Part shown: positions 10,487-52,922 of the stretch, piece by piece
Layout of the letters: each line of letters starts with the position of its first letter
How positions within the stretch are numbered: the first letter of the stretch is position 1
Assembly: GCA_947629015.1 (NCBI GenBank)
Contig: CANRCB010000012.1
Coordinates: 1-53,856, forward strand
Origin: an uncultured Gemmiger sp.
GTDB taxonomy: Bacteria; Bacillota; Clostridia; Oscillospirales; Ruminococcaceae
Direction: 5' to 3'
DNA: 53,856 nt
Notes under the pieces: generated by a model
Seen by the model: only the letters and a program-made list of their open reading frames with translations
Told to the model about the DNA's origin: nothing
The model's database searches: none
Made by a program: the position numbers and the translations under genes

Positions 10487-10560
10487 ACAACTTTTTTGCC
10501 AAACGGCCCGCGCGCCGGCTCGTTGTATCTGCGAAGCCAAAAAACGGGGAGGCATTTTTG

Positions 10561-11655
10561 ATGGGGAGCACGAAAAAGACGGTGGCCGTGCTGTTTGGCG
10601 GCTGCTCGGGCGAGCATGAGGTCAGCCTGCAAAGCGCCGCCGCGGTGCTGGACGCCATCGACCCGGCGCTGTACACCGCCGTGCCGGTGGGCATTACCAA
10701 AGACGGGCGCTGGCTGCGCTGCACGGGCGGGAGCAAAACGCTGCCCGCCGGCACCTGGGCCGAAAACGCCCTGCCCTGCCGCCTTTCGCCCGACCGGGGC
10801 GACCACGGCCTGTGGGAGCGCGGGCCGGACGGCGCATGGCGGCTGATGAAGATCGACATCGTGCTGCCCATCCTGCACGGCCGCGGCGGCGAGGACGGCA
10901 CGGTGCAGGGCCTTTGCGCGCTGGCGGGCCTGCCGCTGGCGGGGTGCGGCACCCTGTGCAGCGCCCTGTGCATGGACAAGGACAAAGCCCACAAGCTGGC
11001 GGCCGCGGCGGGCGTGGAAACGCCGCGCGGTTTTACCGTGACCCCCGCCGACGATGCCGGCGGAACGGCGGCGCGCGCCGCCGCATTGGGGCTGCCGGTG
11101 TTCGTAAAGCCGCTGCGCGCCGGCAGCAGCCTGGGCGTGGCCCGGGTGGAAAGCCTTGCCGCGCTGCCGGCGGCGCTGCACGCGGCCTTTGGCTATGACG
11201 ATACCGTGCTGGTGGAGCAGGCCGTGCCCGGCTTTGAGGTGGGCTGCGCGGTGCTGGGCCCGGACGCCGCCGGCCGGCTGATCCTGGGCGCGGTGGATGA
11301 GATCGAGCTGGGCGGCGCCGTGGCGCAGCGCGCGGGCGGCAGCGGCTTTTTTGACTTTGGCGAGAAGTACAGCCTTGCCAACAGTGCCATCCATGTGCCG
11401 GCGCGCATCCCCGCCGAAACGGCCGCCCGCGTGCAGGCGGCGGCCGCGGCGGTGTACCGCGCGCTGGGCTGCCGCGGCTTTGCCCGGGTGGACAGTTTTT
11501 TGACGCCGGACGGGCGGGTGGTGTTCAACGAGGTGAACACCATCCCCGGCTTTACCGCCCACAGCCGCTGGCCCGGCATGATGCGGGCCGCGGGGTATGA
11601 TTTCAAGACCGTGGTGGGCCTTATTTTGCAAAACGCGGAGGCGGAAGCGCTGTGA
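10561..11655 (+). CDS. vanG: D-alanine--D-serine ligase, VanG type
   Basis: This 364-aa ATP-grasp ligase matches VanG along its length: VAVLFGGCSGEHEVSLQSA at the N-terminus, LHGRGGEDGTVQGL, CSALCMDKDKAHKLA, VFVKPLRAGSSLGV and the ADP/Mg-binding FNEVNTIPGFTAHS. The omega-loop has FGEKYSL, as in VanC/VanG enzymes, rather than the Lac-ligase type, so D-Ala-D-Ser is the likely product. The start at 10561 follows GGGGAGG. It overlaps the VanXY gene by 4 bases. Glycopeptide resistance in vivo cannot be read from sequence. Confidence 0.88.
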   Translation: MGSTKKTVAVLFGGCSGEHEVSLQSAAAVLDAIDPALYTAVPVGITKDGRWLRCTGGSKTLPAGTWAENALPCRLSPDRGDHGLWERGPDGAWRLMKIDIVLPILHGRGGEDGTVQGLCALAGLPLAGCGTLCSALCMDKDKAHKLAAAAGVETPRGFTVTPADDAGGTAARAAALGLPVFVKPLRAGSSLGVARVESLAALPAALHAAFGYDDTVLVEQAVPGFEVGCAVLGPDAAGRLILGAVDEIELGGAVAQRAGGSGFFDFGEKYSLANSAIHVPARIPAETAARVQAAAAAVYRALGCRGFARVDSFLTPDGRVVFNEVNTIPGFTAHSRWPGMMRAAGYDFKTVVGLILQNAEAEAL

Positions 11656-33875: not shown

Positions 33876-34814
33876 GTGGCGTACAAGCTGGCGGAGCAAA
33901 ACGGGGACAGCACCGCCGTGCCGCAGGTGGTGATGGCGCACGTGGCCCGCGCCGACGGCGACACGGTGCGCGTGGCGCTGCACATTTTGGCCACCGGCGA
34001 GGCCGAGCCGCGCGCCCTTGCCAAAGCGCTGGGCCTGAAAAGCGTGGAGGCCGCCAGGCGCGCGCTGCAATACTGGGCGGGCGCGGGGCTGCTTGTGAAG
34101 GAGCGCGCGCTGCCCGCCAAAGAGGCAAAAACGGAGGAGGAGAAGGCCGCCGGCATCGACCTGGCCGCGCTGGACGACCCGTATGTAGCCGTTTTGTGCG
34201 AGGAGGCGCAGGCCACGCTGGGCCGCGCGCTGGGCCGCAGCGAATTGCAGCGCCTTGTGGCGCTGTACCTGGAGGACGGCTGGGGGCCGGACGTGCTTTT
34301 GCTGGCCGCCGGGGAGGCCGCGCGGCAGGGGCGGCACACGGTGGCGGCCCTGGCGCGGGAGCTGGAGCGCTGGCGGGAAGCGGGCGTGGAGACCGGCGAG
34401 GACGCCGAGCGGTATCTGGCGCGCCAGACCCGGCGGGAGGCGCACCGCGCCGAGGCGGCCGCGCTGTTTGCGCTGGAGCCCGCGGCGCTGACCCGCTGGG
34501 AGCGCGGCGCCATCGACCGCTGGTATGAGGAATGGCAGATGGACGCGCCGATGATTGAGGAGGCGCTTTTGCACGCCGAGGGCAAGCGCACCGTGCGCTA
34601 TGTGGACGGCATCCTGCGCCGCTGGCACGCCGAGGGCCTGACGACGGTGGCCGCCGTGCGCGGCAAGGGGCAGCTGGCGGGCAGCAACATCCTTGCCACC
34701 GGCCGGCGCGCCCCCGCCCCGGGGCGTGCCGCCCCGGCCGCCGCGCCGCAGCGCAGCCTGAACGCGATCCTGGACGAGGAACTGGAGGGGATCACCGATG
34801 CGTACGAGGGATGA
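33876..34814 (+). CDS. DnaD-domain replication initiation protein
   Basis: The 312-aa protein has an N-terminal winged-helix region (TVRVALHILATGEAEPRALAKALGLKSVEAARRALQYWAGAGLL) and two DnaD-type domains, the second ending ALTRWERGAIDRWYEEWQMD..YVDGILRRWHAEGL. DnaD/DnaB proteins help load the replicative helicase in low-GC Gram-positives. The start is taken as GTG 33876 (VAYKLAEQ) after AAAGGGGG. It overlaps the following loader gene by 17 bases. Length suits a DnaB-like loader partner. Confidence 0.8.
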   Translation: MAYKLAEQNGDSTAVPQVVMAHVARADGDTVRVALHILATGEAEPRALAKALGLKSVEAARRALQYWAGAGLLVKERALPAKEAKTEEEKAAGIDLAALDDPYVAVLCEEAQATLGRALGRSELQRLVALYLEDGWGPDVLLLAAGEAARQGRHTVAALARELERWREAGVETGEDAERYLARQTRREAHRAEAAALFALEPAALTRWERGAIDRWYEEWQMDAPMIEEALLHAEGKRTVRYVDGILRRWHAEGLTTVAAVRGKGQLAGSNILATGRRAPAPGRAAPAAAPQRSLNAILDEELEGITDAYEG

Positions 34815-35802
34815 ACTTTTCCGGCAGGCGCAGCGCCAGGTGGCGGCGCGCCGCCAGCGGGCCGTGATGCAGGCCGAGACCGCCCGGCGGGAGGCGTTCG
34901 CCCTGTACCCCGCGCTGGCCGCCGCCGCCGATGCCCGCACCGACGCCGGCCTTGCCCTGACCCGGGCCGCCGCCGCCGGCGCGGACCTTGCCGCTGCGCG
35001 CGCCGCGCTGGCGGATGCCGAGGCGCGCTATGCCGCCGCCCTGCGGCAGGCCGGGTTTGACGCCGCGGCCTTCGCCCCCGCTTATACCTGCCCGGCCTGC
35101 CGCGACACCGGCGTGGTGGACGGCCGCCCCTGCCGCTGCGTGGCGGAGCTTGTGCGCGGGCTGCGCCGGGAGGAGATCAACAACGCCTCGCCCCTCAAGC
35201 TGTGCGGGTTCGAGACGTTCGACCTGACGCGGTATCCCACCGACTATGACGAGGAGCTAGAGACCTCTTTGCGGGAGTACATGGGCAAGATCCTGGACGG
35301 CTGCCTCCGGTACGCGCAGTCCTTCAAGCCGAACAGCCGCAGCCTGCTTTTTACCGGCACGGCCGGGCTTGGCAAAACGCACCTGGCGCTGGCCATCGCC
35401 GACAGCGTGCTGGACCAGGGGTTCGATGTGCTGTACACCAGCTCCGCCGCGCTGGTGGCGCAGCTTGCGCGGGAGCATTTTGAGCACGACGAGGACACCG
35501 AATGGCTGACCGCCTGCCAGAATGCCGACCTTTTGATCCTTGACGACCTTGGTACCGAATATGTGAACGCTTTGACCATCAGCGTGCTGTATGAGCTCGT
35601 CAACACCCGGATGCTGTGCCGCCGCCCGACCATCTACACCTCCAACATCACCGACGACGCCGTGCTGGAGGCGCGCTATACCGAAAAGGTCTCCAGCCGC
35701 ATTTTGGGCAGCTGCAAGGTGCTGCGCTTTTACGGCGCCGACCAGCGCCGCCCGGGGCAAAACAAGGCAAAAGGCAAAGGCAGGGAAAAGGGGGACACAT
35801 GA
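34798..35802 (+). CDS. DnaC/DnaI-like helicase-loader ATPase
   Basis: The 334-aa AAA+ protein has an Ala/Arg-rich N-terminal helical region (1-90), a cysteine cluster YTCPACRDTG..PCRC (about 98-117) that should bind zinc as in DnaI, Walker A FTGTAGLGKTHLALA near 187 and Walker B LLILDDLGTE near 243, with a sensor I at IYTSN. It loads the DnaB-type helicase with the DnaD-domain protein encoded just upstream. The C-terminal tail is Lys/Gly-rich. Start ATG 34798. Confidence 0.85.
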   Translation: MRTRDELFRQAQRQVAARRQRAVMQAETARREAFALYPALAAAADARTDAGLALTRAAAAGADLAAARAALADAEARYAAALRQAGFDAAAFAPAYTCPACRDTGVVDGRPCRCVAELVRGLRREEINNASPLKLCGFETFDLTRYPTDYDEELETSLREYMGKILDGCLRYAQSFKPNSRSLLFTGTAGLGKTHLALAIADSVLDQGFDVLYTSSAALVAQLAREHFEHDEDTEWLTACQNADLLILDDLGTEYVNALTISVLYELVNTRMLCRRPTIYTSNITDDAVLEARYTEKVSSRILGSCKVLRFYGADQRRPGQNKAKGKGREKGDT

Positions 35803-36069: not shown

Positions 36070-36669
36070 ATGACGTACGGGTATATCCGCGTTTCCAGCC
36101 GGGAGCAAAACCTGGAGCGGCAGCGCATCGCCATGGAGCGGTCCGGCGTGCCGGAGCGCTTTGTTTATGCGGACATGCAGTCCGGCAAGGACTTTGACCG
36201 CCCGGCCTACCGGCGGCTGGTGCGCAGGCTGAAGCCGCAGGACACCCTTGTGATCAAGAGCATCGACCGCCTGGGCCGCAACTATGAGGAGATACTGGAG
36301 CAGTGGCGCCTGCTGACCAAGGAAAAAGGCGTGGCGGTGACCGTGCTGGATATGCCCCTGCTGGACACCCGCCGGGACCGCGACCTGACCGGCACGCTCA
36401 TCGCCGATATCGTTTTGCAGCTGCTTTCCTACGTGGCGCAGACAGAGCGGGAGTTCATCCGCCAGCGCCAGGCCGAGGGCATCGCGGCGGCAAAGGCGCG
36501 CGGCGTCCGGTTCGGGCGGCGGCCGTTGGAGCCGCCGCCCGAGCTGGCCGCGGTCCGCGCCGCATGGCTGGCCGGCACCGTCTCGGCACGGGGCGCGGCA
36601 AAGCGGCTGGGCGTATCGCGCCAGACCTTTGCGCGCTGGATGCAGAAGGCGGCCCGGGCCGAAAAGTAG
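36070..36669 (+). CDS. Serine recombinase / DNA invertase (Hin/Pin type)
   Basis: The 199-aa protein is the length of Hin-type invertases. The catalytic Ser9 sits in MTYGYIRVSSREQNLERQR. IKSIDRLGRNYEEILEQW carries the conserved Arg residues, and the E-helix region includes YVAQTEREFIRQRQAEGIAAAKARG. A C-terminal HTH (about 170-195: RGAAKRLGVSRQTFARWMQK) binds the crossover site. Its stop codon lies inside the left inverted repeat of the adjacent 219-bp segment, so the protein end stays intact in either orientation. The arrangement points to local promoter inversion for the adhesin gene. Confidence 0.9.
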   Translation: MTYGYIRVSSREQNLERQRIAMERSGVPERFVYADMQSGKDFDRPAYRRLVRRLKPQDTLVIKSIDRLGRNYEEILEQWRLLTKEKGVAVTVLDMPLLDTRRDRDLTGTLIADIVLQLLSYVAQTEREFIRQRQAEGIAAAKARGVRFGRRPLEPPPELAAVRAAWLAGTVSARGAAKRLGVSRQTFARWMQKAARAEK

Positions 36670-36682
36670 AGATTAAATGACA
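36662..36682 (+). repeat. Left inverted repeat of the invertible segment
   Basis: A 21-bp arm beginning AAAAGTAGAGATTAA and ending TGACA. It matches the reverse complement of 36860-36880 except at one position (A versus G at base 16). It contains the TAG stop of the recombinase. Confidence 0.88.
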
Positions 36683-36782
36683 AGGGATGTGCAGTATGTG
36701 CGCCCACCGCGCACATTTCCCCGCCCCCGCGCGGCCCGGCCGGGAAAAATGGCATAATACGCCAAAAATTTTGCGAAATCTC

Positions 36783-36811
36783 TTGTCCTTTTAAGCATTT
36801 TCTGTTAAAAT
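36783..36811 (+). promoter_or_regulatory. Promoter inside the invertible segment, ON orientation
   Basis: TTGTCC (36783-36788) and TAAAAT (36806-36811) with a 17-base spacer, in an AT-rich stretch, directed at the adhesin gene 122 bases downstream. Confidence 0.65.
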
Positions 36812-36859
36812 TATTATGTTTGTAAGTTGGCGGCATGGAAGCTGCCGCCAGGAAAAAAG

Positions 36860-36880
36860 TGTCACTTAATCTCTACTTTT
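36860..36880 (-). repeat. Right inverted repeat of the invertible segment
   Basis: Reads TGTCA..TTAATCTCTACTTTT on the plus strand, the partner of 36662-36682, 20 of 21 positions complementary. Confidence 0.88.
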
Positions 36881-36932
36881 TGGGCCAGGCCGCCCCGCGG
36901 CGGGCACGGCCTGGAGCACGGAGGGAAGAGCC

Positions 36933-39900
36933 ATGAAAATAAAGAACGTCTGGAAGCGCTTTACCGCGGCGGCACTGTGCCTGTGCATGGGGGTGGCGGA
37001 TCTGCCGCTGCCCGCGCTGGCGGCGGAGGGCGACGTGGAATATACCGACGTCTATGTGCAGCACGTCTACCTGAACAGCGATATGTCTGTATGGGAGGAG
37101 GGCCAGATCTATCCTTCCGAGAACCGTGGCAGGAGCCGCTTTACTGTCCACACGGACGGTGACGCGATGCCAAGCTCCAGCGAAAGCTCTTTTGATGAGA
37201 AGAGCGAGTTCTACGGATGCTTTATCGTCCCCCAGGAACAGACCTATTATGATGATACGTTCGCGGCGTACGTGACGGAGCAGTACACCGGTTATGAGAT
37301 CGCCGCCGGCAACGAGGCGGTGGAATTTTACGAGACCGACGGCCATACTTCCAAGGGGCCGCATTTCGAGGTCACGTATAAGTCCAACGTGCAGAACGTG
37401 ATACTCTATCTCTTTTACAGCTACGACGGCCGCACCGTGCTGGGCGCGGACTTCGGCGCGGATCTGGAAGGCGTGGTCGATGCAGGCGAGGACGTTTTGC
37501 TCGTAACGGAGGATAACAAAGAAGCCATCATCCAGGCCGCCGAGAAACACGAGATCGATGCCCTGCAGGCGGTAGAGGTGGGCGACGTCATCTACAACAC
37601 GGGCACGGAGGGCCTGCACACCGAAAAGCGCGTCTCGGCGGACGTTTTGGAGGACGGCCGCACCTTTGACGTGAGCCTTGAATCCTGGTACACCGCCGAC
37701 AGCAACGCGGCGGACGTGGGCTTCATCCTTGACTCTTCCGGTTCCATGGCCTTTGTGCCCAACCCCACCAGTGCCGAGGATGGGCTGACGCTCGTGCAAG
37801 GGGATCAGAGCGACGATAAAAAGTTTAACAAGTTGCGTAAAGATGGCTATAGTGTCACGTATATGGCCCTCCCCTCGGATGAGTTGTTCGTTGACGATGA
37901 CCCTTACCAGACCTTTATGAACCCCGGCAACACGGACAACTCGCCCTTGGCCTATACGGGCTACAGCTATTATGTTTTTGACAGCCGGGAATCGGTCAGC
38001 GAGCTGGTGCCCCTCGCCTACTGGGACGGCACGATGCAAGACGCGACGAACCCCATGAAGATCGGCCTGGTGGGGATGTACCAGTTTGACCGGACGCAGG
38101 AAGGTAGCACCAGGCCATACTTTTTGAAGAATGGAGCTACGGGAGATATAAATAGTTCGAGTGTAGTGGGAGACCATAGCCAGTCCAACAACGATTATAA
38201 ATCAGATAATAACAGCGGAGGAAGTGTTACGCCCGCAAAAGGTTCACTCCAGTTATATTCGATAAACGACGATAGTCCATTTCATTCCACCCTTGACTTG
38301 GACGCAAAGGTCACCGACCCGAAAAACTTCACCATCTCCTTTGCGGTGAGGACGGATGGCACCGGCACGATCAACGCAGAGCTTCATGGTTCCGGCGGTC
38401 CCCAAGCGGAGGATCTGGTGACCATCAAGGGCGCGGACGGCAATGTGCTTTATACCATCCTCCGGGGGACCGCAGGTTCCGGCAATAGCCAGAACCACGT
38501 CCGGTGGCAGAAAAGCGGCGACACCTCTCACCAACATGTAAATCTTTCGTATGCCCTTGGCGGCGATGCATCGGAGCAGAAGTATACGAACTATAGCGCG
38601 AATGCGTGGCGCGTGTTCACTTATGTAGTAGAAAACGGCATCATTACCGCCTATGTGGACGGAGCGCCGGCCGACGTGACGGAGGAACTTGACTTGGGCG
38701 ATGGCCCGCTCAGCTTTACCCTGGGCGGCTCCGACCGGTTTGTGTCCGGCCCCACTCTCCAGATCGACGAGGTGTACATTTACGACGGCCGGGCTTTGTC
38801 GGCCGACGACGTTTCCGAGCTGGTCAATACCATGAATACCCCCGCCGACAACGTGACCGATCCTGTAACGGACAAAAGCGCTGTGGTCGGCGGCACCGAG
38901 ATGAACCTGTATGACTATACCAATTTCAATAGCCTGGCCAAGGATGCGCGCGCCGGCTGGTATTATGTAAACTCCATCGGCGATTATACCGAGATCACGG
39001 CTGCCGATTCCGCCAAGAGCCTCCACGGCCTGACCACAAGAGGCGATAGCAAATATCCCGAGACCATGGGCGGCCGCTCGACGCTGGCCGTGAAGAGCGG
39101 GGACGACGGTATCAATGGCGGGAACACGATCACGGGCGGCGCGGATATCACGCAGACTTCCCCCTGCCTGTTCTATTTTGCCGATGCTGACGAGGATACG
39201 GCCGTCACAGGAGACAAGAACTATAGCGGTTGGAACACATTTGGCTCCGATGACGTGATCCTGCACTGCATCTTCAGCCCCTCCTCGGGCATCGTGCTGG
39301 ATTCACCGGTCTTTGTAAAGCAAAGCAACACCGAGATGTACACCAAGGCGCAAAAGCTCCAGGTGGCCCTGAACACCTTCATCAACCGGCTGCGGGTAAA
39401 CTCCTCCGAGAGCAGGGTCTCGGCCGTGCGCTTCAGTTCGGAGACTTACGGCACGCACCCGGACGAGCTGCTGCTCCAGACCTGGACCAATGACCCGGCG
39501 CAGAGCACCGGCATGATGAACCTGAGCCGCGGCGATGACGTGGAAGCGGGCATGGCCAAGGCCACAGACAACGCCGGCGGCCTTTACAACTACGTGATCA
39601 CCGGCGGCACCTGCGCTTATACCGGCCTGCAGGCTTTTATAACGAAGCTGGCGGATGATACGGCCGTCAAGGACGATGACGCGGGCAAGTATCTTGTCCT
39701 GTTCACCGACGGCCAGGACGATGAGTTGGACGACGCCGGCAAAGCGGTCATGGATACACGGGCCGTGGCGCTTGCCGAGCAGCTGAGAAAAGATTACGAT
39801 TACACGATCTTTACCGTCCGGCTGGTCAGCGGCGATACGGACAGCAGCGGCGCAGGCGGCGAACGGGCGGCGGCGTTTTTGCAGGCTATCGCCGGCAATG

Positions 39901-51947: not shown

Positions 51948-52922
51948 CTATTCTATGTATTGAGCAATTTTGTGTAATTCATTCTCAAACAAGTCTTTTC
52001 TCTTTAACAAAATCTCATAGCCATAGTCATATGCAGGAGGTGGAAAAAGATTGGAACTTTCCAGTAATTTTCCATCTCCTACCCAAGAAATAACATTGTC
52101 TATCCGTAAACGGACGATTCCGACAACATTGGAAGTAATATCAAAAGATGTTTTGTTGTCGTGTATATTGCGCCGCACGACCAAACCATGCTGGGCATGC
52201 GGACGAAGGAAAATAGATGGAAGGGAAGATCTTAAATCAATCGTGATGATTTCGTTCCCCATATATATACCCCGCTCGAAGGGTGCCGTGTTATTATCAA
52301 CGGCAACGAGCAGCATATATTGATATATGCTTTCTTTAGGGTCTGCTGCAGTGACCAGCTCGATTGGGGTTACCTGTCTTTTTTGGTAATAGCAATACTC
52401 CGATAGGTTTTTTATCTTTTTAAACTGGTTAAGACCAAACCACAGAGCGATCCAATGGTTGTCTACCAAGTCAACAAAATGCGTAGAATAGCCATAATGT
52501 TGAAGCAAAGCCTCAACGATCAGTGCAGGACTTTTTGCACTCTTGAAGCCGGACAATTTTGCTGTTTTGGAAAACTTGTCATCAGCAATGGCGTTTTTTA
52601 TGACTAAGTTCAAGGCTTCTTCATATTTACAGCTGTTTGAATGCCGAGAGATGCTTGGCAAAAGAGACTCGTGCAAATGGACCTCTCCGCGATAAAACAC
52701 ATCGCCATATTCAGTATTTAAAAATTTGGCATATCCAATCAGCTGATTTAGCGCCCTGTAATCAGAGACATCAAAAATTGGAACCTTATGGCCAGTAGCG
52801 AAAGTGTGTATGCCTACATTTACTATATATGGACTGGAAATATCTTGAATTACTTTAGGAGAAGCGCTCTTTGATGGCGTAGCGGTTCGCGCCTTACATT
52901 TACTGCTTTTTGGTGATTTCAT
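51948..52922 (-). CDS. FRG-domain protein
   Basis: The 324-aa protein has the FRG domain: VFYRGEVHLHESLLPSISR with the Phe-Arg-Gly motif, and LQHYGYSTHFVDLVDNHWIALWFGL, the conserved QHxGxxTxxxD..AxWF pattern. FRG proteins are common in phage-defence loci, but their chemistry is not settled. A Lys/Ser-rich N-terminus precedes the domain; the C-terminal half is unassigned. The start at 52922 follows TAGGAGG. The gene is strikingly AT-rich beside its neighbours, a sign of recent transfer. It is flanked by a toxin-antitoxin pair and an integrase gene. Confidence 0.85.
   Translation of the reverse strand: MKSPKSSKCKARTATPSKSASPKVIQDISSPYIVNVGIHTFATGHKVPIFDVSDYRALNQLIGYAKFLNTEYGDVFYRGEVHLHESLLPSISRHSNSCKYEEALNLVIKNAIADDKFSKTAKLSGFKSAKSPALIVEALLQHYGYSTHFVDLVDNHWIALWFGLNQFKKIKNLSEYCYYQKRQVTPIELVTAADPKESIYQYMLLVAVDNNTAPFERGIYMGNEIITIDLRSSLPSIFLRPHAQHGLVVRRNIHDNKTSFDITSNVVGIVRLRIDNVISWVGDGKLLESSNLFPPPAYDYGYEILLKRKDLFENELHKIAQYIE

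Follow-up and report, generated by a model that had tools for sequence, protein, structure and literature searches.

Judged by layout and half-site, and as far as the accessible part of its description goes, the closest match to the locus that we describe here is the streptococcal SZO08550/SZO08560 cassette. In Streptococcus zooepidemicus, a streptococcus of horses, the recombinase SZO08550 adjoins the LPXTG surface protein SZO08560, which has an invertible promoter (Holden 2009, PMC2654543); the promoter segment, -170 to -55, lies between the inverted repeats GTAGACTTTA and TAAAGTCTAC, five reads carry it reversed, RT-qPCR gave a forward transcript 44-fold over the reverse, and the reverse strand of the recombinase gene was measured as well (PMC2654543). 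Hin, Gin and Pin resemble our locus in being serine recombinases that invert promoters at 26-28-bp dyad sites; the segment turned by Hin measures about 1 kb and its inversion involves a Fis-bound enhancer (PMC3798978), whereas mostly 84-218 bp separate the site centres in the family studied here. The Mpi master invertase of Bacteroides fragilis inverts at least thirteen scattered regions (PMC5903667), as against one local pair in our source genome. In Clostridia, inversions have been described near signalling and chemotaxis genes (Sekulovic 2018), and the invertons of group 139 likewise combine inversion with a neighbouring recombinase, there linked to the tyrosine type and here a serine enzyme; the word 'serine' is absent from the main text of that report (Jin 2025, PMC11892184). 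The literature searched, mostly openly accessible papers in their main text, yielded no description of the present clostridial serine family or of its spacing rule.

The DNA analysed, referred to below as the window, is a stretch of 53,856 nucleotides from an uncultured Gemmiger sp. (contig CANRCB010000012.1), and the features of interest are listed in Table 1. Very probably the locus is a cis-acting phase-variation switch in which the recombinase inverts a promoter segment, with the adhesin ON in the assembled orientation. A preliminary description had arrived at this same picture, and it is still the best reading in view of site pairs of one family and the linkage found by a recombinase-blind search, with further backing from two flipped locus pairs and from the precedent published for S. 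zooepidemicus (PMC2654543). As in the streptococcal cassette, the recombinase is adjacent, the promoter (recognised by consensus only) lies between inverted GTAGA-type sites upstream of a gene, and the target is wall-anchored; the lineage and the type of adhesin are different. The window half-site is GTAGAGATTAA, with sites 205 bp apart, and what it shares with the published repeat is GTAGA, not the whole. The streptococcal repeat is found within a site of another family locus (L086, AAAAGTAGACTTTATTG), and the PF09479 repeats of SZO08560 recur in the target of L072.

Table 1. Positions of the switch components and the adjoining genes within the window.
Feature	Position	Strand	Basis or remark
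Small serine recombinase, presumed invertase, 199 aa	36070..36669	+	PF00239, Sin alignment
Left inverted-repeat arm	36648..36682	+	inverted-repeat search
28-bp dyad site in left arm	36655-36682	+	overlap AG 36668-36669
Presumed invertible interior, 177 bp	36683..36859		50% G+C (window 64% G+C)
Predicted promoter TTGTCC-N17-TAAAAT, sigma-70-like, TG extended -10, facing the adhesin	36783..36811	+	consensus match
8-bp perfect hairpin in predicted leader	36828..36850	+	sequence, fold
Right inverted-repeat arm	36860..36894	-	inverted-repeat search
28-bp dyad site in right arm	36860-36887	-	overlap CT 36873-36874
Ribosome-binding-like GGAGGG ahead of adhesin ATG	36920..36925	+	by eye
Giant sortase-type adhesin, 2604 aa	36933..44747	+	profile search, C-terminus by eye

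The recombinase open reading frame is intact with catalytic motifs present, and its product carries the Resolvase domain PF00239 (profile search, E=6.3e-30), sharing the stretches VSS and SIDRLGRNY with Sin in an alignment. It had been called 'Hin-type' at the outset; the serine recombinase catalytic domain bears this out in part, while the label itself is loose, the closest solved structure being Sin (2e-24), ahead of gamma-delta resolvase (2.8e-18) and a chain named only DNA-invertase (2.5e-16) in a comparison of solved structures only, and on these sequence matches the class assignment would seem not settled. Since Sin and gamma-delta resolvase outscore the DNA-invertase chains, the enzyme could be a resolvase serving multimer resolution or transposition, for which the repeat would be a binding region and the proximity of the adhesin incidental. 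Relatives at E<=1e-30 on 428 plasmid records, 315 of them Enterococcus plasmid records, point the same way, as does the relative on plasmid pPD1 (L175), which shows no pair but a single strong site (27.5) and is perhaps a multimer resolvase. The window sites, however, are inverted rather than direct, with complementary overlaps and a promoter between them, and the same layout stands ahead of different genes, so that we regard a resolvase role as very unlikely. Another plasmid relative, on pGTC3 of E. faecalis (L174:3992-7005), comprises a family recombinase and a site pair 94 bp apart with AG overlap, located ahead of genes for an Rrf2 regulator and for a protein with leucine-rich repeats; a search for inversion among plasmid copies found the pGTC3 switch in one record only.

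The best NCBIfam model for the window recombinase is that of Bacteroides fragilis Mpi (NF009949), at 61 bits against a curated cut-off of 272, which does not place it in that family. Neither a second recombinase copy nor any site within 3 mismatches beyond the window pair was found in the source genome (assembly 87% complete), and the idea of a master invertase was rejected for want of such additional sites.

The inverted repeat of the window scores 23, the highest for spacers of 50-500, with the next at 16 and a best score of 15 in 30 dinucleotide shuffles of the whole window. The 21-bp repeats with one mismatch that had been reported are present, though the arms are longer than claimed (35 nt each, 89% identity); the 177 nt between them are as described. 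The two sites, each a match to the family dyad, agree at 20/21 core bases. The dinucleotide AG at 36668-36669 is at once the overlap and the end of the recombinase stop codon TAG, and because of this an in-silico inversion at the 2-bp overlap leaves the recombinase open reading frame identical, stop included, in agreement with the original claim that the left repeat holds the stop and that the protein is unchanged. Positions 36640-36960 fold better than their own shuffles (z -4.46), as would be expected if the repeat were not a recombination site but acted as RNA, forming a long hairpin in the leader or an attenuator. The predicted transcript, however, starts between the repeats, and the left arm is therefore outside the adhesin leader; dyads sharing this core moreover flank differing interiors at further recombinase loci, and an RNA role is extremely improbable.

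Matches to the switch DNA of the window were obtained in 6/297 family genomes, its own included, the foreign ones being short (29-51 bases). The only foreign match inspected (L136, G256:C58:6041-6724) consists of three AT-rich tandem repeats, 88-91% like the window promoter over ∼33 nt, and was judged a chance resemblance. At L089 a 75-bp perfect inverted repeat (∼10544-10618) takes in the recombinase 3' end, and its outer arm looks, from the sequence, like a duplicated gene end; the 35-nt arms of the window may have a similar origin.

The promoter is the sole consensus match on either strand of 36600-36960 (0.2 expected per shuffle) and points at the adhesin, just as first described. Its score is modest, 10.5, a value reached by ∼4% of shuffled interiors; after in-silico inversion the best score facing the adhesin is 8.5. 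The 2604-codon adhesin has likewise held up as the target, with a signal peptide and a C-terminal PPRTG-hydrophobic-RKKRR sorting signal recognised by eye and, from a profile search, a VWA domain, three FctA stretches and two DUF7601 stretches. It does start right after the right repeat, with 52 bases from the 21-mer to the ATG and not 53. Three genes in the source genome give sortase matches above cut-off. Outside that genome the full adhesin query (2604 aa) gave only partial, domain-level matches, in 37/60 other genomes, and conservation of the adhesin was dropped as evidence for this reason.

In the switch that we propose, dimers of the recombinase would bind both 28-bp dyads, pair them and cut at the AG/CT overlap, by strand-exchange steps like those of serine recombinases generally, and invert the 205 bp that separate the dyad centres. 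In the ON state the interior promoter would drive the giant adhesin, with a presumed role in adhesion. In the OFF state no comparable promoter faces the adhesin, which should then be silent, and the promoter would be directed at the 3' end of the recombinase gene and into it, an antisense direction that follows from the promoter geometry; that such antisense RNA affects the switching rate is a guess. The recombinase would be the same in both states, with its stop codon inside the site. As for an interior terminator blocking OFF read-through, one weak candidate (36764-36750, - strand) was found, within chance; 37 family interiors gave 7 on the opposite strand and 3 on the same strand, some with the strand misread, and the terminator idea was dropped.

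Recombinase relatives have been examined at a first set of 110 loci (L005-L114, the window being L005), 80 of them the best 80 of at least 500 confirmed relatives in a genome-contig scan and 30 from 61 genomes, 37 of which have a recombinase match; at least one locus is counted twice (L006 and L068, neither with a site pair). Confident pairs, made up of 28-bp dyads with complementary overlap dinucleotides, served to train a site model, giving the family consensus TGTACAAAAAAGTNNACTTTTTTGTACA with the dyad core AAAGT-NN-ACTTT. Site pairs of score >=16 are present at 58/110 loci, the window among them, and in 0/71 distant control stretches from these loci; the 52/110 loci where the model finds no pair count against the switch reading. 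In sets not used for training, pairs of score >=24 occur at 13/27 class-level and 16/74 viral loci. Over all sets 85 loci reach this score; the pair follows the recombinase start in 76 of them and precedes it in 9, and in 68 of the 76 the first site is centred at +585 to +660. On these sequences, clostridial relatives of the recombinase tend to carry a site pair at its 3' end. An earlier survey with inverted repeats alone (38/108 loci at score >=12 versus 0.5% of shuffles) is superseded by the site model.

The AG overlap occurs in the window and in L035, AC/GT being commonest in the family. L035 is the nearest full orthologue (82%), with sites and stop arranged as in the window; its interior has no similarity to the window interior above chance (12.5; null 95% 12.5) and hence provides no information on the window orientation. 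Recombinase identity is at most 64% in 34 further genomes searched from the genus of the window, and the cassette may have been transferred between lineages. In six relatives (L036, L039, L040, L043, L046 and L069) the recombinase reading frame runs through the first site, and inversion would therefore alter its C-terminal tail.

A recombinase-blind search of 391 Clostridia genomes with two exact site-pair patterns of the AC/GT type, the window itself being of the AG type, returned 6 + 3 = 9 places (G506, G588, G059, G049 twice, G658, G723, G476 and G527), with 0 for a backwards control, and 9/9 have a family recombinase match at a distance of 27-131 bp. Patterns of the same kind gave 1, 0 and 0 places in viral contigs, the one adjoining a family recombinase, and this was also the whole yield of a search for more flips there.

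Comparison of the 85 interiors gave 17 locus pairs of similar sequence (score >=24), 15 in the same orientation, which counts against the switch reading, and 2 reversed. For L081/L082 the reverse score is 39 and the forward 12, and for L038/L058 the values are 26 and 8, where the 99.9th percentile of reverse scores over 3570 pairs is 22.5; the recombinase-side flanks align forward in both. These flips are between different species, L038/L058 is little above chance and the L081/L082 overlap is the palindromic AT. Promoter scores of at least 11.5 occur in 20/82 interiors versus 0.4% of shuffles, with the window (10.5) below this cut, and of 23 clear promoter orientations 6 are away from the recombinase and 17 towards it.

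Centre-to-centre distances cluster near 94, 104, 116, 126, 136, 147, 156, 179 and 189 bp, with a vector strength of 0.78 at 10.40 bp for the 65 loci at <=200 bp (null 99% 0.43-0.44). The value is 0.74 with one locus per 75%-identity cluster (n=27, null 99% 0.58) and 0.75 when viral loci are added (n=35, null 99% 0.55); 65%-identity clusters merge to 1 and 6, too few for a periodicity test (p about 0.10 for 6). Held-out loci fall close to the predicted phase, the deviation being at most 1.7 bp for 12 class-level loci and at most 2.3 bp for 14 viral loci, two of which (L222 and L223) seem to belong to a single element. Direct pairing of the sites over short DNA loops would explain the 10.4-bp periodicity, and the prediction that the face of the helix is decisive can be tested on plasmids.

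Among longer spacings L159 (209) and L230/L231 (364) are 0.5 and 1.5 bp from phase, L035 (218) is 1.9 bp off and L051 (318) 4.5 bp. The window spacing of 205 bp also misses the family phase by 4.5 bp, and a single orientation of this copy is known, from one assembly; both count against the switch reading, and both would be accounted for by a former inverton that no longer flips and leaves the adhesin constitutively ON. Broken-looking relatives lend this some credence, namely the recombinase of L061 (L061:10001-10792), which is 87% identical to that of the window over residues 1-151, then abruptly divergent, and looks interrupted, and one of G476, which adjoins a site pair and contains a single in-frame TGA. 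Against a locked switch stand the intact recombinase with its catalytic motifs and two sites that match both the family dyad and, closely, one another, and we consider it unlikely.

Targets were assigned mechanically at 54 loci as the longest open reading frame starting <=900 bases beyond the pair, sometimes surely wrongly, and 30 of these, chosen by hand with long ones favoured, were taken to Pfam. They include adhesin-type repeat proteins (L071, L099, L072 with PF09479, and L051, where the pair assignment is ambiguous), a capsule-type Wzz protein (L035), methylases of the Eco57I (L040, L063) and C5 (L104) types, HA-domain helicases (L038, L039, L088), a HerA-like protein (L076), adenylation/NRPS proteins (L078, L087, L097), a symporter (L041) and a mutase (L080, weak pair, 17.6); 9/30 are without a Pfam family, and the sole match of L053 falls below its cut-off. 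By these domain matches the targets appear to differ across the family, from adhesins and capsule to restriction-modification and NRPS. The results suggest that the switch proposed for one streptococcus in 2009 represents a single instance of a module common among Clostridia, by which gut bacteria phase-vary surface genes and, apparently, defence genes. A wider proposal, that a transferable, target-agnostic and helically phased inversion cassette that needs no distant enhancer is spread across Clostridia and mobile elements, before adhesin, capsule, restriction-modification, helicase and NRPS genes, and that its OFF-state antisense RNA tunes the switching rate, is offered tentatively, the balance being somewhat against all of its parts holding together. 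The site model can be used to find such switches in other assemblies.

Elsewhere in the window, an IstB-like ATP-binding protein is encoded upstream of the switch (34798-35802), a possible trace of a mobile element, and an FRG-domain protein at 51948-52922 on the - strand.
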